Assembly (NCBI GenBank): GCA_029932195.1
Contig: JAOZQN010000001.1
Span: 10,595-54,734 of the forward strand
Length of the DNA stretch: 44,140 nucleotides
Reading direction: 5' to 3'
From: Bacteroidales bacterium
GTDB taxonomy: Bacteria > Bacteroidota > Bacteroidia > Bacteroidales > JAOZQN01
The notes under the pieces were generated by a model. It made no database searches and was not told where the DNA came from. It saw nothing but the letters and a program-made list of their open reading frames with translations. Shown in pieces: positions 18,480-40,929 of the stretch. Numbering within the stretch: the first letter of the stretch is position 1; the number at the start of each line of letters is the position of its first letter. A program made the translations under genes and the position numbers.

Positions 18480-20678
18480 TTACTGTATCAAATGATTCTT
18501 GCTATCAGCTTTTGCTTTCTCAATTAGTTCTTGGATTTTGTTGTTGCGAATTGTCCATTTTATTAGTTCGTAAACAACATCTTTTATGTTTTTCACATTT
18601 CCTACAATTTCTGGCAAAGTTAAATCTAATTCATAATCTAAAAAACGTTCAAGATTAGAATATTTTGGATATGCCGCAATAATTGCTTTTTCAAGTTGTT
18701 TTTTGTCTTTGCCATTCAATTTTAAAACTTTATTTTCTAATTGTGAGCTATATTTTTCTTCTTCCAGAAAATTTGTTTTTATGTCCGTAACACCATTCAA
18801 AAGTTCGGTTACAATTACGTCTTTGTAGCTTTTATCACATTGTTTTTCTCTTATGCCTTTTTCTTTTCTTCTCATTAATTCGGAATATTCAAAAAAATGA
18901 GGTTCTTTTTGGTTTTTGCATTCATTGCAAATACACGGCACAAGTTTTTCGTAATTTAGTTTTTTATAAGGGCTCAAAAGTTTGTCAAATTCGTTATTTA
19001 TTATGCCCAATAATTCTTTTTTCCTACTTCCGTATATGCGAATAAGAAATTTATTGCTTTTGTCGTAAGTTTCTTTTATTTCTGCCTGTGTGTTTTCAAA
19101 TTCTATGTTTACACCTCTGCTCCAAACAAGTTTTTGGTTTTGTATTCGGCGATGTAGGGCAACAATAATGCGTGGCATAATTCCACGAGGCATGTATTTG
19201 TCGAACTCGTAGGCAAATTGCAAAATTCCAATTTTATTTTCGTGATGCCATGCTTTGTATGGTTGCTCGGCGGGTAAATGTGCCGGAACAACATATTTTT
19301 TTGTGTTGTCAATTTCATACATCAAACCAAAGCGGTGCATTAAATGACTCAGGTTATCAATTTCTGCAAACATTTTGTCGCTATACCAAATTTCTTTAAT
19401 CTGTGTTTCGGAAAGTCTACCTTTGTTCTCTTTTACAATCTTATGATTCAGCACTTCGTAAACAGTATTAACAAGCCAATTGGAATTTAGATAAATACGA
19501 TTTTTGAGTATTTTATCGTCATAATAATGCGTAAAAACACCTATCCTGTTAAAATAATCGCTCAAATAATCAAGTTTTTTAGTGTCTGTTTTGTTTTTTT
19601 TGCAAATTTTAAAATAATGGTCGTAGCTAATAAATTTATCTTTCAGATTAAATAAATCTTTACGGATATTTACCCAAGAAGCAGGCAAAGGATTGCCAAT
19701 ACCAGGCAGTTCGGGGAGCAAATATTTTAGTTTATTTTGTAGTTTAACAATTCTATTGCTATCATTTTTTAAATCAACAGTAACAAAATCGGTGATTAAA
19801 TTTCCAAAACGACCTTTTAGACCGTTCTTATCAATTTGTGGCACATGCTCATGCTTTTTATTGATAACAATTAACAATTTACTATCCTCACCAGCAAGCT
19901 GTTCTATTGTATTTAACCAATATGCAAAATCGGTTCTCTCTTCACGAGTGTCGTCTATAAGCACATAAAAAGATTTTTTGCTAAAAAAGATTTGATGTGT
20001 TCCATGATACAATTTTTGCCCACCAAAATCCCACAAATTGGCATACATAGTTTGTTTGCCTCGCAAATGGTGCATGACTTCAAAATCCCATTTTGTAACC
20101 TCAATACCAAGAGTTGTGTCTTTGTCTTTTGGTAATTCTGCTGTTTTATCTTTTATTTTTACGGCAAAACTTGTTTTTCCAGCTCCTCCTTCTCCTATAA
20201 TAAGCAACTTAGTTTCAAATAGATACTCAACATTTCCAATTATTAGTTGTTCCAGATAATTTTTTACGGCATTACGCCCTTTTTCTAATATTTCAAAGGG
20301 TGGATTCTTCATAGGATTGTTTGTCAAAACATCGTCCCAGTTTTCTATATTTTTCAAGTTATTGAAAACATTATACGGTAATTCTGAAATATTATTATCA
20401 CTTAAATCGAGACCTCTCAGTCTTTTTAAATCTTTTAAAAATGAAATATCTGAAATTTCATTATCCCTTAAATAAAGACTTGTCAAGCTTTTTAACTCTT
20501 TTAAAAACTCAATAATCCTACCTAAGTCTTTAATTTTACAATTATATAAACTTAATTTGCTTACCTCATTTTTTTCGTTAAAAATATAATTTCTTGTATT
20601 CCATTCAATCTTGTCATTCCGTTCAAGTTCAACACCTAATTTTTGCTCTATTTGTTTTATAATTTGTAAGTTAGTCAT
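18480..20678 (-). CDS. LRR-Roc-COR protein with C-terminal effector-associated domain (EAD1)
   Basis: A bacterial Roco protein of 732 residues. Three or four leucine-rich repeats at about 38-115 (LTSLYLRDNEISDISFLKDL, LRGLDLSDNNISELP); a Roc GTPase with P-loop GEGGAGKTS at 162-170, TTLGIEV, switch motif WDFGGQKLYHGTHQIFF and a G4-like NKKHE; a COR region (LPASWVNIRKDL, YLNSNWLVNTVYEVLNHKIV); then CICNEC plus a later Cys, probably a metal site. Residues 654-732 (LEKAIIAAYPKYSNLERFL, VVYELIKWTIRNNKIQELIEKAKAD) fit the EAD1 adaptor domain known from bacterial STAND/immune proteins. The N terminus and backbone match the Roco protein at 32094. No partner gene carrying EAD1 is in this window. Likely role: conflict signalling. 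Confidence 0.88.
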   Translation of the reverse strand: MTNLQIIKQIEQKLGVELERNDKIEWNTRNYIFNEKNEVSKLSLYNCKIKDLGRIIEFLKELKSLTSLYLRDNEISDISFLKDLKRLRGLDLSDNNISELPYNVFNNLKNIENWDDVLTNNPMKNPPFEILEKGRNAVKNYLEQLIIGNVEYLFETKLLIIGEGGAGKTSFAVKIKDKTAELPKDKDTTLGIEVTKWDFEVMHHLRGKQTMYANLWDFGGQKLYHGTHQIFFSKKSFYVLIDDTREERTDFAYWLNTIEQLAGEDSKLLIVINKKHEHVPQIDKNGLKGRFGNLITDFVTVDLKNDSNRIVKLQNKLKYLLPELPGIGNPLPASWVNIRKDLFNLKDKFISYDHYFKICKKNKTDTKKLDYLSDYFNRIGVFTHYYDDKILKNRIYLNSNWLVNTVYEVLNHKIVKENKGRLSETQIKEIWYSDKMFAEIDNLSHLMHRFGLMYEIDNTKKYVVPAHLPAEQPYKAWHHENKIGILQFAYEFDKYMPRGIMPRIIVALHRRIQNQKLVWSRGVNIEFENTQAEIKETYDKSNKFLIRIYGSRKKELLGIINNEFDKLLSPYKKLNYEKLVPCICNECKNQKEPHFFEYSELMRRKEKGIREKQCDKSYKDVIVTELLNGVTDIKTNFLEEEKYSSQLENKVLKLNGKDKKQLEKAIIAAYPKYSNLERFLDYELDLTLPEIVGNVKNIKDVVYELIKWTIRNNKIQELIEKAKADSKNHLIQ

Positions 20679-24456: not shown

Positions 24457-24710
24457 ATATTTATATTTTTAAAGTCAATATTTTGTATTATTATCTTATT
24501 TTTTTCATTTTAAGATATTCAAAAACTTTTTTTTGTAATATATTTATATTATACTTTGGCATAATAATTCTTTTTAACTTTAGTCTGCAAATTTACTATT
24601 TTTTTTAAAATTCCTACTTATTTATTAATTTATATTTTTATTCGTTAAAATAATGACAATTAAAAAAGCCAAACAGAAATATTTGACTTTTTAATTGTAA
24701 TTTTTGTAAT

Positions 24711-24736
24711 AGAGACGTGCCACATGGCACGTCTCT
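24711..24736 (-). terminator. Palindromic terminator after the DUF4465-like gene
   Basis: A perfect 12-bp stem AGAGACGTGCCA (24711-24722) with its complement at 24725-24736 and a two-base loop, 11 bases after the stop codon of the minus-strand gene. A second AT-rich hairpin (24663-24692, arms AAAAAGCCAAA and TTTGACTTTTT) follows. The GTAGAGACGTG motif also occurs near 8398, so it is a dispersed palindrome. The remaining gap to 24457 is AT-rich with no ORF. Confidence 0.65.
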
Positions 24737-24747
24737 ACGGTAGATTT

Positions 24748-25716
24748 TTAATATTTTATTATTTTTTCAGAAACAACAACATTTTTTGAATTTATTTTTA
24801 AAATATAAATACCTGAATTAAAATTGGTTAAATCTATAATTTCGTTTTCTGAACAATTGTTTTTTTGATAAACAATTTTCCCAGAAATATCTGTTAAAGA
24901 AATTTGCCCCTCTCCCACTCTATTTATATTGATAAAATCTGTAGTTGGATTTGGATATATTTTTATCTCATTTTTAACATTTTCTGATACAGAAGTTATT
25001 GTCTCAAAAATTAAGTTATCAAAACAAAAATAAGTAGGATTTGTTATTCCAGAATCATTATATTTTGTAGAAGCAAATGTAAATGTCAAATTATCAATAG
25101 TTCCAAGAGGTGTTAAATCTACTTGTTGCCAATCATCAATAATAATTCCTTCTATTCCTGTGTAGTCTGCCAACAAAAATTCTACCTCTCCTGTTGAAAC
25201 ATCTCCATTTTTTCCTTCAATAATTAATTTAAAAAAGTCATCATTATCTGTTGTAAAAGCCTCGCTAAAAGTATCTCCATTTAAGATAGTTAGAGCTGCA
25301 TAAGTAGAATTTGTTACCCAAATTTCCGACACATTCACAGGGTTTTCAAAAGAACAGCTTGCCGTTCCTGTCGTCCAAAAACCTGATTGCAAGCCTCCTC
25401 CATAAGCAGGATAAACTATTCCAAAATTATCTCCACTAAATGCTTCTCCTGCATAAGTGCTGTATTGATTTTCGTAGCTATTGGTAGTTTGATCTGTTAA
25501 ATTTGAATAAGAGAAACCGTCCCACGAAAAATAATCTGAATTATAGTTATTCACAAAATTAACATACTCACTACCAAAACCTCCCGACTCATCAGAACCA
25601 TTCCAATAACCTTCGTCTGGCATTGTAAATTGTTCAAAATTAAATACTTGCTGCGAAAAAGCAACCATTGGCACTAACATTATAGATACCAATACAATTC
25701 TCATAAAATTTTTCAT
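24748..25716 (-). CDS. T9SS-secreted DUF4465-like protein under cobalamin control
   Basis: A secreted protein of 322 residues. Signal peptide (cleavage near AFSQQ); a DUF4465-type domain at about 28-240 with characteristic YWNGSDESGGFGSEYVNF, FSWDGFSYSN, NFGIVYPAYG, VSEIWVTNSTYAALTILNGD, VEFLLADY, DWQQVDLTPLG and YFCFDNL; then a type A T9SS sorting domain from about 246 (EIKIYPNPTTDFININ, SGIYILKI, VVSEKIIKY). It lies about 200 bases downstream of a well-formed cobalamin riboswitch on the same strand, so B12 should repress it. From memory, DUF4465 proteins occur in some Bacteroidota B12-uptake loci. The inference is a surface protein that binds cobamide or helps its capture. No BtuB-type receptor is next to it. 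Confidence 0.85.
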   Translation of the reverse strand: MKNFMRIVLVSIMLVPMVAFSQQVFNFEQFTMPDEGYWNGSDESGGFGSEYVNFVNNYNSDYFSWDGFSYSNLTDQTTNSYENQYSTYAGEAFSGDNFGIVYPAYGGGLQSGFWTTGTASCSFENPVNVSEIWVTNSTYAALTILNGDTFSEAFTTDNDDFFKLIIEGKNGDVSTGEVEFLLADYTGIEGIIIDDWQQVDLTPLGTIDNLTFTFASTKYNDSGITNPTYFCFDNLIFETITSVSENVKNEIKIYPNPTTDFININRVGEGQISLTDISGKIVYQKNNCSENEIIDLTNFNSGIYILKINSKNVVVSEKIIKY

Positions 25717-25914
25717 CGTTAAAAAATTTAAAAGTTAATAAATAAAATTGTAAAGTATCAATATGATTAAATTGGTGAGATGTTGAGGGTGATTTATTAA
25801 AGAGTTGGTTATTTGCTTTATTTGATGAGTTGTTGTGTGAAACTCTAAAAAATAACTATTTTCAAATAAACCAATAAACAAATATACGAATAAACCATTC
25901 CCAAGCTATAACTC

Positions 25915-26150
25915 CCGACAGCTTAAAGATATTGAACCACAAAACAGTAGGTTTTCTGACTTATTCCATATTTTAAAAGCCTTCCCATCTTCCAAAATGA
26001 TAAATTAAGAATGAAGTATGTTAAATTTAATTAATCATTCAACATTAAAAATCAACCATTATAAAAAGCAGTGGCACAGATATTTAAAACGTAGAAAATT
26101 ACAGCAGCGGGGACTGTCTAGGATTTTCACCCAGTTCCCTTCCTGTTTTG
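25915..26150 (-). promoter_or_regulatory. Cobalamin (B12) riboswitch
   Basis: Read on the minus strand, the conserved blocks occur in order: GGGAACTGGGTGAAAATCC (26121-26139), GACAGTCCCCGCTGCTGTAA (26099-26118), GCCACTG (26069-26075), GGAAGATGGGAAGG near 25985-26000, and the B12-box equivalent AGTCAGAAAACCTACTGT (25944-25961). These match the AdoCbl/cobalamin aptamer core. The downstream segment to about 25915 can form a hairpin (AAGCT...AGCTT) and may be part of the expression platform. It lies in an 850-bp gap and reads into the DUF4465-like gene, with about 200 nt of further leader that contains another TAnnTTTG box at 25879-25886. Confidence 0.9.
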
Positions 26151-26156
26151 ATGTCG

Positions 26157-26189
26157 CAAAAGTAAAATATTTTTTAAATATTAACGCAA
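26157..26189 (-). promoter_or_regulatory. Promoter of the riboswitch-controlled transcript
   Basis: On the minus strand, TTG at 26187-26189 is followed after 22 bases by TACTTTTG at 26157-26164, an exact TAnnTTTG box. Transcription would begin near 26150, right before the first conserved block of the cobalamin aptamer. Confidence 0.6.
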
Positions 26190-26344
26190 AACAGTTTTTT
26201 TTTTTACTTTTGTAGGAATTTTATTTAGGAAGGAGGAGTTAGGAAGGAAGAGGGAGAAAATTAGGAAGGAGGAAAAAATTAGAAGAACGAAAGTTAGTTT
26301 TTTCTAAAAAATCACCTTCTCCAACCTCCAAACCTCCTTCCTAA

Positions 26345-26504
26345 TACCAAACCGCAATCAAAATAGTGTTTTAGAAAAAGAATTGTTTTTTGTTTATTTG
26401 ATTTATCAAAATTCTTGCATAGCCGTAGCTATGAAACATTTTTTTAAAGAAAAATAAACAAAAAAGAAACGTTTTATATTCATTATTTTGATAACGGTTT
26501 GGTA
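26345..26504. mobile_element. 160-bp palindromic MITE-like element (family C)
   Basis: The ends, starting TACCAAACCG and finishing CGGTTTGGTA, are complementary over 21 bases with two mismatches. Second arms (TTGTTTTTTGTTTATTT and AAATAAACAAAAAAGAA) continue the palindrome, and the centre has CATAGCCGTAGCTATG. It is flanked by TAA on both sides (26342-26344 and 26505-26507), a possible 3-bp target duplication. It is embedded in a second inverted repeat made of GGAAGGAGG-type words (26226-26275) and CCTCCTTCC-type words (26320-26340 and 26510-26530) just before cysD. No ORF. Confidence 0.6.
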
Positions 26505-26566
26505 TAAGAACCTCAAACCTCCCTCCTAACTCACTCACACATAAAACGAATAAACCAATATAAAAT

Positions 26567-32028: not shown

Positions 32029-32093
32029 ACAGACTAACTTTTAATGAATTGAAATTTTATAATAAAAACTAATTTTAAAACTTGAAAAATAAA

Positions 32094-34742
32094 ATGACCG
32101 ACGAACAAATTTTAAAGAAATTAGAAAAACAATTAAATATTAAATTTGAAAAAGTTAATAAGATAAATCTTTTTGATAAAAAACCATGTTTTGAAATTAA
32201 TAATGGTAATATTACAGGTCTTCTTATCAGAAATGTAATTATTGAAGATTTAAGTTTGATAAGTAAATTGGTTAATTTAGAAGAACTTTATTTGTCAGAT
32301 AATCAAATAAAAAACATTTCAGATTTAAAAATTTTAAAAAATATTTCAGAACTTGATTTGTCAAATAATCAAATAAAAGATATTTCTATTTTACAAAAAT
32401 TGGAAAAAATTACATTACTTGATTTGTCAAATAATCAAATAAAAGATATTTCTTTTTTAGAAAATTTAAAAAAGATCGAAGTTCTTTTTTTATCAGATAA
32501 TCAAATAAAAGATATTTCGGTTTTGCAAAATTTGAAAAATCTTATGGTATTTTATTTGTCAGATAATCAAATAAAAAACATTTCAGATTTAAAAATTTTA
32601 AAAAATATTTCAGAACTTGATTTGTCAAATAATCAAATAAAAGATATTTCTTTTTTACAAAATTTAAAAAACATTAAACTTCTTGATTTATATAGTAATC
32701 AAATAAAAGATATATCAGTATTAAAAAATTTATTAAAAAAAGAAAATTCTTTTGATAAAGATTTTTTTGATTTTAATTTTAATTTAAAAAACAATCCCTT
32801 AAAAACGCCTCCTAAAGAACTTGCTGAACTTGGCAGAGATGCTATAAACGAATATTTTGAACATATAGAACTTGGTTACACCGTTTTGAAAGAGGCAAAA
32901 TTAATAATAATTGGCGAAGCTGGTGCTGGCAAAACTACTTTTGCCAAAAAACTTATAAACGCTAATGCCAAAATGCCAGAACAAAACGAAACTACACTCG
33001 GCATAGATGTTTATAATTGGCAATTTGAAACAAATTTGAATAATACAGAAAGTCCAAAATTCAATGCTAAATTGTGGGACTTCGGTGGGCAAGATATTTA
33101 TCATGGCACGCATCAGTTCTTTTTTAGTCAAAAATCGCTTTACATTTTAATTTCTGATGCTCGAGACCAAAGAACAGATTTTAATTATTGGCTAAATACG
33201 GTGGAACAATTAACGGGAGAGAATAGTATTCTTCTGGTTTTGTTTAACAAAAGAGAAGGACGAAATTGGAAATTAGAAGATGAATACGGATTAAATAGAC
33301 GTTTTGAAGGAATGATAAAAAAAGTTATTTCAATAGATTTATCAAATATAGATGAAATACCGCATTTGCAACAGCAAATACAAAAAGAAATAACAAATTT
33401 GCCACAAATAGATTATCGCTTACCAACAACTTGGGTAAATATTCGCAAAGAACTTAGCAAGCTGACAGACAGATATATTAGCTACGAAAAATTTAGAGAT
33501 ATTTGTAATCAAAATAATATAACAAATCCCAAAGTTATAGAAATTATTAGCAAATTATTTACAAATATAGGCGTTTTTACTCATTTTATAGAAGAAGAAA
33601 CAAATTTGCAAGATATAATATTTCTTGATTCTAATTGGCTTACAAAAACAGTTTATTCATTGTTAGACAATCAGATAGTAATAGAAAATAAAGGAAAAAT
33701 TACACGCACAGAAGTAAATCAAATATTAAAAACAGAAGAATTATATTTTGATGTAGATAAATTTATAGAACTATTAAAAAAATTTAGTTTAATATATAAA
33801 ATAAATGGTAGTCAAAATTATATTGTTCCATACCATTTGAAAGCCGGGCAGCCTTACAAAAAATGGAAATATATAGATGACAAAAATGTTTATATTTTTC
33901 GTTATTTATTTGATAATTATATGCCAAAAGGAATTATGGTAAAACTTATTGTTGCTTTGCATCAATATATTTACGACCACGAACTTGTGTGGGCAAGAGG
34001 TGTAAATATCTCTAATTCAGTGAATAAACCCGATACTTTTGCGGAAATTATAGAAACTTATGGACGAGAAAATCGTTTTGATATAAGAATTTATGGTAAA
34101 AATCAAAAAGACCTTTTGCAAATAATAATTTATCATTTCGATAAAATATTAAAACCATTCACAAAACTAACTCACGAAAAAGAAGTGCCATGCAATTGTG
34201 AGACTTGCATTACAAGTGATAATCCACATTTTTTTAAATATAAGTCTTTGTTAAAACGAAAAGAAAAAGGAAAAACTACAATTGAATGTGATAAAAGTTT
34301 TGAAGATACTAATATAAAAGAATTGCTTGAAGGAATTGATTTTTCGGAACTGCGAAGTTTATTAATAAATAAAAAATTTGAGGAATTTAAACAACAAATA
34401 TCTCAACGCTTTTCCGATATTTCGTATCAAATACATAAAAAGACTGTTTCGGAAAGTTTTTTTCATAGCAATTTTCATACTATTTTAGCAGAGAATGGTT
34501 TAAAACCAATTTCAGAAGAAAGCACAAACGACGGCAGAATAGATTTACACCTTTCTATTGATAAAACAAAATATTTGTTTGAACTAAAATTAAAAGAAAG
34601 CAAAGATGACGGTATGAAACAAATTCATGAAAAAAAATATTATAACAAATTTTTGGGACAGTTCGATAAAATAATCTTAATAGCTATTAGTTTTAGCACA
34701 AAAACACGAAATATAGATAAAATAGAATATGAAATTTTATAA
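32094..34742 (+). CDS. LRR-Roc-COR protein with C-terminal PD-(D/E)XK nuclease domain
   Basis: A Roco protein of about 882 residues. Seven near-identical 22-residue leucine-rich repeats at about 65-220 (consensus LDLSNNQIKDISxLxxLxxI), a Roc GTPase with P-loop GEAGAGKT at 274-281, TTLGIDV, WDFGGQDIYHGTHQFFF and NKRE, and a COR region (LPTTWVNIRKEL, FLDSNWLTKTVYSLLDNQIV). Next is CNCETC plus a later Cys. C-terminal from about 785: SFFHSNFHTILAENG, GRIDLHLSI (Asp817), YLFELKLKES (Glu830-x-Lys832), then QIHEKKYYNKF, matching the PDDEXK_9 nuclease group. I start at the ATG aligned with the Roco protein at 18480; a TTG lies four codons upstream. Suggested role: GTPase-gated nuclease for conflict or phage defence, inference. 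Confidence 0.88.
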   Translation: MTDEQILKKLEKQLNIKFEKVNKINLFDKKPCFEINNGNITGLLIRNVIIEDLSLISKLVNLEELYLSDNQIKNISDLKILKNISELDLSNNQIKDISILQKLEKITLLDLSNNQIKDISFLENLKKIEVLFLSDNQIKDISVLQNLKNLMVFYLSDNQIKNISDLKILKNISELDLSNNQIKDISFLQNLKNIKLLDLYSNQIKDISVLKNLLKKENSFDKDFFDFNFNLKNNPLKTPPKELAELGRDAINEYFEHIELGYTVLKEAKLIIIGEAGAGKTTFAKKLINANAKMPEQNETTLGIDVYNWQFETNLNNTESPKFNAKLWDFGGQDIYHGTHQFFFSQKSLYILISDARDQRTDFNYWLNTVEQLTGENSILLVLFNKREGRNWKLEDEYGLNRRFEGMIKKVISIDLSNIDEIPHLQQQIQKEITNLPQIDYRLPTTWVNIRKELSKLTDRYISYEKFRDICNQNNITNPKVIEIISKLFTNIGVFTHFIEEETNLQDIIFLDSNWLTKTVYSLLDNQIVIENKGKITRTEVNQILKTEELYFDVDKFIELLKKFSLIYKINGSQNYIVPYHLKAGQPYKKWKYIDDKNVYIFRYLFDNYMPKGIMVKLIVALHQYIYDHELVWARGVNISNSVNKPDTFAEIIETYGRENRFDIRIYGKNQKDLLQIIIYHFDKILKPFTKLTHEKEVPCNCETCITSDNPHFFKYKSLLKRKEKGKTTIECDKSFEDTNIKELLEGIDFSELRSLLINKKFEEFKQQISQRFSDISYQIHKKTVSESFFHSNFHTILAENGLKPISEESTNDGRIDLHLSIDKTKYLFELKLKESKDDGMKQIHEKKYYNKFLGQFDKIILIAISFSTKTRNIDKIEYEIL
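32287..32651 (+). repeat. Tandem 66-bp LRR-coding repeats with a 101-bp exact duplication
   Basis: The LRR array repeats with a 66-bp period. Bases 32287-32387 are identical to 32551-32651, an offset of 264 bp or exactly four units. Synonymous positions are also conserved, which points to recent duplication or gene conversion within the array and not only selection on the protein. Confidence 0.9.
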
Positions 34743-37141: not shown

Positions 37142-39709
37142 ATGGAATTTATATCAGGAGCAAAATATATTAGAGCAGATTTTCATTTACACACAAAATC
37201 AGATACTGAATTTAATTATAAAAGTGAAGAAAATGATTTTGTAAAAAACTATGTTCAAAAATTAATAGAGGAAAATATTCAACTTGCGGTTATTACAAAT
37301 CACAATAAATTTGATTTAAAACAATACGATGGCTTAAGAAAAAAAGCAAAGAAAAAAGGCATTTTTCTTTTACCTGGAATTGAATTAAATATAAACGAAG
37401 GAAAAACAGGTTTACATACACTGATTGTGTTTGACAATAAAAAGTGGTTAGTTGGCAACGAGGATTTTATAAATGATTTTATTACAAAAACAGCTCCAAC
37501 AGATAATCATGATTTTAAATATAAAAACGGACTTTCTCAACATAGTTTAATTCAAACTATTGAACTTCTAAATACATTTAAAAAAAAATATTTTATTGTA
37601 TTAGCACATGTTTCGTCTGATAATGGATTATTAAAAGAAGTGAATGGGAAAAAAATTGAACAGCTTGGAAAAGATCCTATTTTCAGGAAAAATGTTCTTG
37701 GATTTCAGGCAGTTAAAAATGGAGATTTTGATAATTTAAAACTATGGCTTAAAAAAAAGCTTCCTGCTTTTGTTGAAGGTTCTGACCCTAAAAGTATTGA
37801 ACAAATAGGAAAAGGAAAGAAATGCTACCTAAAATTAAGCGATTTGAATTTTGATGCTGTTAAATTTGCTTTGCAATATCACGAGAGTAGAGTTGTCCGA
37901 GAAATTCCAAAACAACAAAACGCTTATATTAAATCGGTTGAGTATGTTGGAGGCAAACTTGATGGTAAAATAATCCACCTAAGTCCATCAATGAATAATA
38001 TTATTGGGATACGAGGAAGTGGAAAATCATCAATTTTGGAAACTATACGGTATGCTTTGAATATTAACTTAGATAAGAAAATTACTGCAGACGAGAATTA
38101 TAAAAATTCAATTATAAATAAAACTCTTGGAGGAGGTGGCAAAATTTTACTTAAAATACAAAATAATAATAATATTTATAATATTGAAAAAGGAACAACT
38201 GGAATAGCAAGATGCATTGAAAAACCCGACTTAAATATAAAATCATTAATAAAAAGTTTTTATTTTGGACAAAAAGACTTATCAAGAATAGGTGAGACAA
38301 AACAAAGTAATAAAGAATTTATATATCGTATAATTGGGAAAATTGATAATGATCAAAAACTAAAATCTGATGAGATTTCAAATAAAATAAGAGCGTTATT
38401 ATCAAAAATTATTCAAATTGAAAAAAAGATAGAAATAATACCAGATATAAAAACTCAAATTGCTGATTTAAAACAAGATATTGAAAATATAGAAAAATTT
38501 GGACTTAAAGAAAAATTAGAAAAAGAAATAAATTTTAGTCAAGATATAAATAAAATAAAATATATAAAAAAAGAAATTAAAATAACAATTAATAATTTTG
38601 AAGAGTTCTTAGATAATCAAAATGAAGATTATAATTATTTAAAAGCCTATAAATCAAAAGAAAATAAACCTTTTTTTAACGAAATTTTCACAATACTTGA
38701 TAATATTTCTATTATTCAAAATTCATTTAAAGAAAAAAAGTTAGAAATAGAAAATAAATTTTCAAAAGTAGAAAGTATAGAAAATAAATTATTGGAATTA
38801 ATCGAAAAACTAAACGAGGTATTTGCAAAAAGTCAAAGAGAAAGTAGTATTTCTGCAGAAGATATTAAAAATTATCAAGAATTTCAGACTAAATTGTCTA
38901 ATAAAAAACTTCTCCTAACAGAATTGGAAAAACTAATTCCTAAAAAAAAGTTATTAAGAAAAGAATTAAAGACAAAACTAAACGAGGTTAAAGAAAGCTG
39001 GCAAGAAGAATTTAATATTATAAAATCAAAAATAGATACAGTAAATTCAAAACAAAAAAAACTAAAAATAATTATTAAATTTAAACAAAATAAAAGAGCA
39101 ATAGAAGATTTTATTTTTAATTTTTCACATAATATAAGGAGAGAAAATATAAAAATGTTGATAAAAAACAATAATGATTTAATTGATTTATTTGAAAAAT
39201 TTGAAAATAAATCTGATTTAAAAATCAATCAAATTGATGATATAAAAAATCAATTTTATAAAAACTTACCTAATTTCCTTACTTTCCGAGTTCCAGATAC
39301 TTTTGAAATAGAATACAATAGAAAACCTTTAAAAAATCATTCTCTTGGGCAACGAGCATCTGCATTAATTGTTTTTTTATTTTCGTTACGTAACAACGAT
39401 TTAATTTTAATTGACCAACCAGAAGATGACTTAGACAGTCAAACTGTTTATAATGAAGTAATTACATTAATTAAAAACATGAAAAGCTCAACACAATTTA
39501 TTTTTGCGACACACAACCCTAATATTCCTGTATTGGGCGATTGTGAGCAAGTTTTAGCTTGCGATTATGACAATAAAAACGAAAAAATTAATATTAATTC
39601 AGGTGGTATTGATAAAAAAATAATACAACAAAAAATTATAAATATCATGGAAGGTGGTGAACAAGCTTTTGATGAACGAAAAAATAAATACACACAATGG
39701 AATCATTAG
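37142..39709 (+). CDS. PHP-domain/SMC-like ATPase (TrlF-type)
   Basis: An 855-residue protein that joins a metal-dependent PHP phosphoesterase domain to an ABC/SMC-type ATPase. PHP (about 1-220): DFHLHTKSD, VITNHNKFD, LLPGIELNI, HTLIVFD and VLAHVSSDNG are the metal-ligand motifs. ATPase: Walker A GIRGSGKSS at 289-297, a long Lys/Glu coiled coil at about 385-695, signature NHSLGQRASALIVF, Walker B LILIDQPEDDLDSQTV near 755 and the H-loop ATHNPNIPVLGD. This is the protein kind that automated annotation calls TrlF-family AAA-like ATPase. It overlaps the next gene by 13 bases, so translation is coupled. Architecture suggests a nucleic-acid-processing or defence role, which is inference. Confidence 0.88.
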   Translation: MEFISGAKYIRADFHLHTKSDTEFNYKSEENDFVKNYVQKLIEENIQLAVITNHNKFDLKQYDGLRKKAKKKGIFLLPGIELNINEGKTGLHTLIVFDNKKWLVGNEDFINDFITKTAPTDNHDFKYKNGLSQHSLIQTIELLNTFKKKYFIVLAHVSSDNGLLKEVNGKKIEQLGKDPIFRKNVLGFQAVKNGDFDNLKLWLKKKLPAFVEGSDPKSIEQIGKGKKCYLKLSDLNFDAVKFALQYHESRVVREIPKQQNAYIKSVEYVGGKLDGKIIHLSPSMNNIIGIRGSGKSSILETIRYALNINLDKKITADENYKNSIINKTLGGGGKILLKIQNNNNIYNIEKGTTGIARCIEKPDLNIKSLIKSFYFGQKDLSRIGETKQSNKEFIYRIIGKIDNDQKLKSDEISNKIRALLSKIIQIEKKIEIIPDIKTQIADLKQDIENIEKFGLKEKLEKEINFSQDINKIKYIKKEIKITINNFEEFLDNQNEDYNYLKAYKSKENKPFFNEIFTILDNISIIQNSFKEKKLEIENKFSKVESIENKLLELIEKLNEVFAKSQRESSISAEDIKNYQEFQTKLSNKKLLLTELEKLIPKKKLLRKELKTKLNEVKESWQEEFNIIKSKIDTVNSKQKKLKIIIKFKQNKRAIEDFIFNFSHNIRRENIKMLIKNNNDLIDLFEKFENKSDLKINQIDDIKNQFYKNLPNFLTFRVPDTFEIEYNRKPLKNHSLGQRASALIVFLFSLRNNDLILIDQPEDDLDSQTVYNEVITLIKNMKSSTQFIFATHNPNIPVLGDCEQVLACDYDNKNEKININSGGIDKKIIQQKIINIMEGGEQAFDERKNKYTQWNH

Positions 39710-40929
39710 AATTATTAGAAATAATACAAAAAGGTGAAAATAGTTATGTTCAATTTAAAAGAAGAGTAAAAGATGCTCATTCTATTTCTCAAGAAATGTC
39801 GGCATTTGCAAATTACAAAGGAGGAACAATTATTATTGGAGTGGAGGATAAAACAGGAGAATTAAATGGTTTGACTTTTGCCGAAATAAATGAAAATAAT
39901 AAAACTCTGTCAAATGCGGCAAGTGATAATGTAAAACCAAGTTTATTTATTCATACAGAACAAGTTACAATAAATAATCATACACTTATTGTTGCAAAAA
40001 TACCAGAAGGAATAAATAAACCTTACAAAGACAAAAAAGGAGCTATTTGGTTAAAAAATGGCTCAGACAAAAGACGAGTTACTTCTAATGAGGAACTTGC
40101 AAGATTATTACAAGACAGTAAAAATATTTATGCCGATGAGCAAATAATTATAAATTCTTCTATAAATGATATAGACTATCATAATGTAAAATATTTTATT
40201 TTACAATCTAACCGAAATGATTTTGAAGATATTATAAATAAAATTGAAACTGAAATAACTCCATACAGTTTAAAAAAACACGAACTTGACAATTTTTTAG
40301 AACGAATAAAATTTAATCAACCAATTGTAAAATTGCTTAATAATTTACGAATTTTAGCAAATAATGAATTTACTTTAGCCGGTTTATTATTATTTTCGGA
40401 TAAAACACAATACTATCGTCCTATGTTTACCATAGATTGTGTTACTTTTCCTGAAAATACAACATCTGTAAATACATATTCCGATACAGAAAATCTCACT
40501 GGAAATTATTATGATATTTTTGAAGCAACAATGAATTTTGTAAAAAGAAACCTCAAAAAAATCCCTTCAAATAAAGGTTTTAATAGTAATGCAAAAACTG
40601 AAATTCCCCTTGAAGTATTTGAAGAACTTATTATTAATGCCCTTATTCATCGAAATTATTTTATCAATTCAACAATTAAAATTTTCATATTTCCAAATAG
40701 AATAGAAATAATAAGTCCAGGAGTTTTGCCAAATTCTTTAACTATAGAAAATATTTTAAGTGGCATTGCAATACAAAGAAATCCTAATTTACATTCATTA
40801 GCAAAATATATACTACCATACAAAGGATATGGAAGTGGTATTAAAAGAGCTATAAATTTATATCCCGAGATTGAATTTGAAAATAATTTATCAAAAGAAC
40901 AATTTGTTGCAACAATAAAGCGAAGATAA
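39697..40929 (+). CDS. AlbA_2/Schlafen-type ATP-binding protein
   Basis: A 410-residue protein. An AlbA_2 (divergent AAA/Schlafen-like) domain at about 10-140: ESYVQF-like ENSYVQFKRRV, SQEMSAFANYKGGTIIIGVED, VTINNHTLIVAKIPEG, NKPYKDKKGAIWLKNGSDKRRVTSNEE. A long linker is followed by a C-terminal GHKL-like (HATPase_c_4) domain from about 300: EIPLEVFEELIINALIHRNY, IKIFIFPNRIEIISPGVLP and the Gly-rich KGYGSGIKRAI. Its ATG lies within the end of the PHP-ATPase gene (13-base overlap), so the two form one translational unit. Members are often annotated as transcriptional regulators or helix-turn-helix proteins; in mobile or defence loci they sit beside ATPases. Exact role here unknown. Confidence 0.88.
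   Translation: MESLELLEIIQKGENSYVQFKRRVKDAHSISQEMSAFANYKGGTIIIGVEDKTGELNGLTFAEINENNKTLSNAASDNVKPSLFIHTEQVTINNHTLIVAKIPEGINKPYKDKKGAIWLKNGSDKRRVTSNEELARLLQDSKNIYADEQIIINSSINDIDYHNVKYFILQSNRNDFEDIINKIETEITPYSLKKHELDNFLERIKFNQPIVKLLNNLRILANNEFTLAGLLLFSDKTQYYRPMFTIDCVTFPENTTSVNTYSDTENLTGNYYDIFEATMNFVKRNLKKIPSNKGFNSNAKTEIPLEVFEELIINALIHRNYFINSTIKIFIFPNRIEIISPGVLPNSLTIENILSGIAIQRNPNLHSLAKYILPYKGYGSGIKRAINLYPEIEFENNLSKEQFVATIKRR

Follow-up and report, generated by a model that had tools for sequence, protein, structure and literature searches.

A cobalamin riboswitch ahead of a lone gene for a DUF4465 protein with a type IX secretion tail in a Bacteroidales genome

Introduction

The closest described relatives of the protein studied here are DUF4465 proteins, and that members of this family bind vitamin B12 is not new, having been reported in 2025 and 2026 (PMC12751083, PMC13398666). 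One report describes B12 binding by eight divergent DUF4465 proteins, including some whose identity is as low as 16%, together with the structure of the D5EK51 complex (PMC13398666). The structures of BtuJ1 and BtuJ2 of Bacteroides thetaiotaomicron have also been solved, with Tyr146 and Tyr245 named as conserved contacts, and these lipoproteins were reported to act on extracellular vesicles (PMC12751083). BtuH and riboswitch read-outs have been described in B. thetaiotaomicron as well (PMC8941943), and a TonB receptor riboswitch has been reported in Flavobacterium (PMC9723704).

The outline of the idea pursued here, in which the type IX secretion system (T9SS), cobamide capture and control by B12 are joined, has largely been anticipated in print; its regulatory side is familiar, and the delivery route has been studied less. 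In what follows we take the entry IPR026444 to be the T9SS sorting domain. A count of 824 non-redundant family members gives 229 with IPR026444, 88 with IPR013424 and 275 with a lipoprotein signal, the first two being described as C-terminal extracellular targeting motifs (PMC12751083), which means that DUF4465 proteins of the T9SS type have already been counted in the available text of that paper. A search for the terms "T9SS" and "type IX" found neither in the available texts of PMC12751083 and PMC13398666, and "sorting" was also absent from that of the latter. A literature search that combined T9SS or type IX secretion with B12 (or cobalamin) and riboswitches returned only the paper on the Flavobacterium TonB receptor riboswitch, as far as its available text goes (PMC9723704), and one for DUF4465 together with type IX secretion returned nothing. 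What is added here is an operon survey, the lone form of the gene, trimmed aptamers with compensatory changes, and an unnamed partner protein.

The window, by which we mean the whole stretch of DNA analysed, is 44,140 nt long and comes from a Bacteroidales genome (GCA_029932195.1). An earlier note, made from the sequence alone, had proposed that a cobalamin riboswitch in it controls a lone T9SS-exported DUF4465-like protein that binds or scavenges cobamides at the cell surface. This protein has in common with BtuJ1 and BtuJ2 (IPR027828) the DUF4465 domain, the pocket tyrosines as judged by sequence, an upstream riboswitch and a role in secreted B12 capture, which is a prediction in its case. 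In contrast, BtuJ1 and BtuJ2 are lipoproteins encoded inside btu operons (PMC12751083), whereas the window protein has a T9SS tail, lacks a lipobox and is encoded by a lone gene. It also shares its domain with D5EK51 (9HMU), Fluta of Fluviicola taffensis and others (PMC13398666), and D5EK51 is its best match in the PDB.

The DUF4465 protein

The protein is encoded by an ORF of 322 aa with exact limits at 24748-25716 on the minus strand, and it starts with a signal peptide, read by eye, that has no lipobox cysteine. Residues 61-235 (25012-25536, minus strand) make up the DUF4465 B12-binding domain (PF14717, 146 bits against a cut-off of 25). They are followed at residues 253-320 (24757-24960, minus strand) by a T9SS type A C-terminal sorting domain that is recognised by both Pfam (Por_Secre_tail, PF18962, 55.7 bits against a cut-off of 27) and NCBIfam (TIGR04183, 55.3 against 23). 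These matches bear out the description of a secreted DUF4465-like protein with a T9SS sorting domain, read in the same direction as the riboswitch. Since the sorting domain scores above the cut-offs for type A cargo and the genome encodes SprA (570 bits), so that the T9SS machinery is present, export by this route is predicted. When genome contigs were searched with the protein as query, the only match was to its T9SS tail, in one Bacteroidales MAG (L035).

Judged from its sequence, the DUF4465 fold of the protein is clear, the closest solved structures being 9HMU (E 1e-21) and BtuJ1, 9FCT (E 7.8e-13). Tyr139 and Tyr229 align with BtuJ1 Tyr146 and Tyr245, the DE-loop and HI-loop tyrosines, so the pocket tyrosines are kept. 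Among 30 aligned single-domain T9SS-tailed sequences the Tyr229 column is Tyr in 27 and the Tyr139 column in 22, the latter residue not being invariant across relatives. The HI-loop motif reads TNPTY in the window protein against NTPxY in most of the others, with Asn226 at a column where 25 of the 30 have Thr. A domain that binds some ligand other than cobamides would fit with an alignment to solved relatives that covers about 175-185 residues at moderate identity, and with the fact that the published binding data come from eight family members other than this one (PMC13398666). We nevertheless regard such a ligand as most improbable, given the retained tyrosines, the upstream riboswitch and the wide range of sequence identity over which all the reported members bind B12 (PMC13398666).

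The aptamer and its leader

In a covariance-model scan of the whole window a single RF00174 match reached the gathering threshold, at 25949-26140 on the minus strand (58.6 bits, E 4.1e-12; gathering score 31.5), and the same result was obtained when 25700-26300 was scanned alone. On this score the proposal that the leader contains a real cobalamin riboswitch is confirmed. The match corresponds to the aptamer core, model positions 45-169 of 189. The earlier note had counted all main conserved blocks as present, and this holds for L4, L5, GCCACUG, GGGAAGGC and AGUCAG, but positions 1-44 (the outer stem and first hairpin) and 170-189 (the 3′ outer strand) have no counterpart in the match. The place of the outer stem and first hairpin is taken by a plain 8-bp stem, P1, formed by CAAAACAG (26143-26150) and CTGTTTTG (25940-25947), both on the minus strand.

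The P5/L5 hairpin (26101-26117, minus strand) carries CCCG at 26108-26111. Its proposed partner is a hairpin 3′ of the core, AAGCTGTCGGGAGTTATAGCTT (25903-25924, minus strand), whose CGGG at 25914-25917 is complementary to it; by sequence this hairpin is L13, and the potential for L5-L13 pairing is evident from the two loop sequences. Between them lies the GCCACUG...GGGAAGGC arm (25979-26075, minus strand), which is extended by a long A+T-rich insert; 75 positions are omitted there from the printed Rfam alignment. The window leader therefore shares with RF00174 the core, L5, the GCCACUG/GGGAAGGC arm and an L13-type hairpin 3′ of the core, but it differs in its simple 8-bp stem, in the long insert and in the placement of L13, some 190 nt upstream of the start codon. 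At that distance, simple masking of the ribosome site by L13 is implausible.

The one other genome of the genus that was examined (G001, the sister species) also has such a gene, preceded by a leader (L034:2977-3110) that keeps an aptamer core but has lost the GCCACUG/GGGAAGGC arm; at 26.7 bits it falls short of the gathering score. The CCCG/CGGG kissing-loop complementarity is found in both leaders. When the stems of the two sequences were paired by eye, the 21 pairs compared comprised 6 double compensatory changes, 2 one-sided changes that preserve pairing, 12 unchanged pairs and 1 that is broken, in the L13 stem of the sister species. The six double changes are spread over P1, P3 and P4, and three of them fall among the four inner P1 pairs that could be compared. 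This pattern is a small but direct sign, at the level of sequence, that the RNA structure has been maintained.

These observations bear on the possibility that the riboswitch in the leader is in decay and that the gene is expressed without B12 control. The restriction of the match to model positions 45-169, the low score and lost arm of the sister leader, the long spacer and an unremarkable folding energy (z -0.66) would all be consistent with decay. However, the compensatory changes in three stems and the retention of both L5 and L13 between the two species argue against it, as does the distribution of identity, which is 35/45 and 14/16 in core stretches and 29/33 around L13 but 104/187 in the spacer to the start codon. 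We consider decay improbable and favour a functional riboswitch. As evidence for the aptamer itself, folding energy was set aside as uninformative, and the minimum-energy fold of the window leader shifts with the choice of ends.

The promoter and the transcript ends

Using the Bacteroidota promoter consensus, a string of the form TTTG-N22-TACTTTTG can be read at 26157-26190 on the minus strand, directly 5′ of the aptamer. The promoter that had been placed at 26157-26189 is thus real as a string and adjoins the aptamer, but patterns of the TTTG/TACTTTTG type are no more frequent in the window than chance predicts (8 matches against 6.7 expected), and the pattern was dropped as stand-alone evidence. 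The location just 5′ of the aptamer is the only argument for this candidate promoter. The stretches upstream of related leaders show a modest excess of TAnnTTTG, with 19 of 105 containing it against 6.8 expected from mononucleotide shuffles.

Were transcription to start 3′ of the aptamer instead, the gene would lie outside riboswitch control. A −7-like box, TATATTTG, does exist near 25879, and the earlier note had named a start from it as one of the cases that would overturn its reading. A pattern search of the window, however, found no TTTG 17-23 bases upstream of this box, whereas a full promoter string stands directly 5′ of the aptamer, and L13, which is located between the aptamer and the gene, is conserved. 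We therefore hold a downstream start to be very unlikely and keep to a transcript that includes the aptamer.

A perfect palindrome with 13-nt arms (24710-24737, no strand assigned), present as a single copy in the window, is found just past the stop codon of the DUF4465 gene and from its sequence and position is the likely end of transcription. An intrinsic terminator was also considered as the switching element; hairpins of this kind follow L13 in 7 of 54 leaders against 1.6 in shuffles (the 54 being those of 74 leaders that have CGGG and a long enough remainder), and in the window itself the terminator-like hairpin after L13 is weak, so this candidate was not retained. On the other side of the riboswitch promoter, between it and a divergent gene with a PAPS-reductase domain, nested long inverted repeats occupy 26341-26508. 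In these, 28-nt arms that are 86% complementary enclose 48-nt arms that are 73% complementary, and the arrangement resembles a small mobile element.

Survey of the order

The survey covered 295 genomes of the order, the window genome included. DUF4465 was found in 120 of them and a cobalamin riboswitch in at least 267, among the best matches listed with at most eight candidates scored per genome. The neighbourhood of every DUF4465 match was taken, giving 138 ORFs, and leaders were searched with an nhmmer model built from 22 of the order's riboswitches. Because the window's own sequence is among the 22, its nhmmer match follows by construction and the Rfam result is the independent one.

For 77 of the 138 DUF4465 ORFs the 1 kb upstream holds a riboswitch-like match on the strand of the ORF, while the controls gave 0 upstream on the opposite strand and 1 and 0 downstream. 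In the same loci such a match lies upstream of 36 of 1155 other ORFs of at least 200 aa and of 6 of 93 other T9SS-tailed ORFs. Nine ORFs cut by contig ends were omitted from the counts of architecture, which leaves 129 complete ones. Eighty of these are T9SS-tailed (53 with a riboswitch-like match within 1 kb upstream), 36 have the lipobox pattern only (17 with a riboswitch) and 13 have neither (4 with a riboswitch). The lipobox call is a rough pattern that also flagged 5 of the 80 T9SS-tailed ORFs; the tail model agrees with Pfam in that 29 of 30 aligned members score with PF18962. With 53 of 80 so preceded, a riboswitch before a T9SS-tailed DUF4465 gene is the rule in this order and not the exception. 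Four very large proteins as read (2309-3024 aa; L037, L039, L041 and L045) each contain one DUF4465 domain, and the three of them that are complete (L039, L041 and L045) have riboswitch-like matches upstream.

The L5-L13 relationship is seen in most other leaders too. Of 74 leaders, 59 have CGGG in the 90 nt that follow the aptamer match on its 3′ side, against 7.7 expected from shuffles, typically in the context GCTTTCGGG...AAAGC, while the reverse-complement word CCCG is found in the same 90 nt in 15 of the 74. In the 63 of 77 leaders that could be parsed, the two loops covary: most have CCCG/CGGG, two have CCTG/CAGG (G135 and G231) and one has CCAG/CTGG (G126). Automatic extraction of L5 was wrong in some rows, and the three variants were therefore read by eye.

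Operons, lone genes and a partner family

The commonest fuller arrangement is a riboswitch followed by a T9SS-tailed DUF4465 gene, a gene for a T9SS-tailed protein of about 330 aa, one for a BtuB-like TonB receptor and one for a BtuG-like (DUF5074) protein, as in L055, L057, L063, L067, L123 and L147. The second of these genes defines a family of 24 ORFs of 305-353 aa directly 3′ of T9SS-tailed DUF4465 genes (L055:9825-10835 on the plus strand and 23 others). Its members are 36-56% identical to the first, have a conserved core (DFAVFENxF, FLELAFVEVSSDG) and bear a T9SS tail in all 24 cases. Across the 24 members Pfam gave no shared domain beyond the tail, with two single, weak matches, and a search of the PDB gave matches to the tail plus two insignificant ones at E 0.54 and 1.1. 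Seven ORFs carry the partner domain and DUF4465 fused together, and the genomic setting of the family makes it a candidate for a second component in the capture of B12 at the cell surface. A conserved, unnamed T9SS-tailed family encoded beside a B12-binding domain, and sometimes fused to it, is of interest in its own right.

A BtuB-like receptor is encoded in the fetched locus of 24 of the 53 riboswitch-led T9SS-tailed genes. Of the remaining 29, 15 are flanked by at least 6 kb on each side, and six of those 15 are lone in that no co-directional ORF of at least 90 aa follows within 200 bp downstream. The lone form thus occurs in six surveyed genomes (the window's, G159, G258, G203, G037 and G182), and the window gene is one of several of its kind.

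Type A cargo of the T9SS can be released from the cell. The window protein might accordingly be released, free or on vesicles, and serve as an extracellular B12 sponge and not as a surface-bound protein that feeds a BtuB-like receptor. The window has no transporter gene 3′ of the DUF4465 gene, and the lipoprotein relatives BtuJ1 and BtuJ2 act on extracellular vesicles in B. thetaiotaomicron (PMC12751083), both of which are in line with release. Against this, the receptor genes in 24 of the 53 loci suggest hand-over at the membrane. We think release unlikely and tentatively prefer retention at the cell surface.

The genome of the window

The genome assembly measures 6.73 Mb in 944 contigs and is 97.6% complete; with so many contigs, absences are provisional. 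One cobalamin riboswitch and one DUF4465 domain were found in it, and both are those of the window. Neither a TonB receptor nor a B12 transporter was found among 31 ORFs of the window scanned with Pfam, and a local BtuB-type HMM found no BtuB there, in agreement with the statement that no btuB, btuF or tonB gene is adjacent. No BtuG-like ORF was found in the window and four other stretches of the genome. Compared with a btu uptake operon, then, the window gene is without adjacent BtuB, BtuG or transporter genes.

The gene had also been called lone, and this is correct in so far as the window has no btu gene, but a BtuB-like receptor and a T9SS-tailed partner are encoded on other contigs. The receptor gene is on contig C34, where it was matched in two pieces at 49% and 42% identity, and its best NCBIfam match is TIGR01779, below the cut-off; the partner (402 bits; L190:2280-3290, minus strand) is on contig C881, which also carries metH. 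No riboswitch was found on either contig. With 150 of 317 candidates scored, the partner profile matched 150 genomic places, and at just one of these did the match reach beyond the tail and its surroundings. In the sister species the BtuB query gave weak matches only (best E 1.1e-7).

B12-binding domains gave 12 matches in the genome, 9 of them over the cut-off, and the tetrapyrrole-methylase family (TP_methylase) gave one. Synthesis of the corrin ring requires several tetrapyrrole methylases. With a B12-dependent metH and only one TP_methylase, the organism probably depends on corrinoids from outside.

Proposed mechanism

We consider it likely that the DUF4465 gene is monocistronic, is repressed by B12 and encodes a secreted protein that captures cobamides and feeds a BtuB-like receptor. 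That the product is exported by the T9SS, binds cobamides and is repressed by B12 is the best-supported reading of the gene. It is supported by the 9HMU and 9FCT relatives, the kept tyrosines, SprA, the many T9SS tails, metH with the B12-binding domains, and the btu-type operons of related genes. Transcription would start just 5′ of the aptamer. At low intracellular cobalamin the leader would permit expression, whereas at high cobalamin ligand binding together with the L5-L13 contact would turn the gene off, a direction of switching that we infer by analogy with known cobalamin riboswitches. The signal peptide would take the protein across the inner membrane, and its type A tail with the T9SS across the outer membrane, after which it would be held on the cell surface. 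There, to judge from its homologues, cobamides would be bound in the DUF4465 pocket and presumably passed to the BtuB-like receptor encoded on another contig. The lone gene may be seen as a scattered version of the relatives' operon of riboswitch, DUF4465-T9SS, partner-T9SS, BtuB-like and BtuG-like genes.

A wider proposal is tentative, and on balance we would not yet expect all of it to hold. According to it, the pared-down riboswitch of this genus, which has no outer layer and in the sister species no peripheral arm, would work through its core and the L5-L13 contact. The T9SS-delivered capture protein would be the genome's only riboswitch-controlled B12 gene, the receptor and partner having no riboswitch, so that B12 would be sensed mainly to set the export of the capture protein. 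In many families of the order, a two-protein B12-capture pair made up of DUF4465 and the unnamed partner, in some cases fused, would be delivered by the T9SS. Cells would then have a second export route, T9SS as against lipoprotein sorting, for proteins that capture B12 at their surface, with the RNA control unchanged, and the trimmed aptamers of the genus would offer a natural test of a minimal cobalamin riboswitch.

Some other genes of the window deserve mention. Two encode LRR-Roc-COR GTPases (18480-20678, minus strand, and 32082-34742, plus strand), one with the effector-associated domain EAD1 and one with a PD-(D/E)XK nuclease domain. Further along, a gene for a PHP/AAA-type protein (37142-39709; SMC_N and AAA_21 matches) overlaps a Schlafen AlbA_2 gene on the same strand (39697-40929), and the two may possibly form a defence pair.
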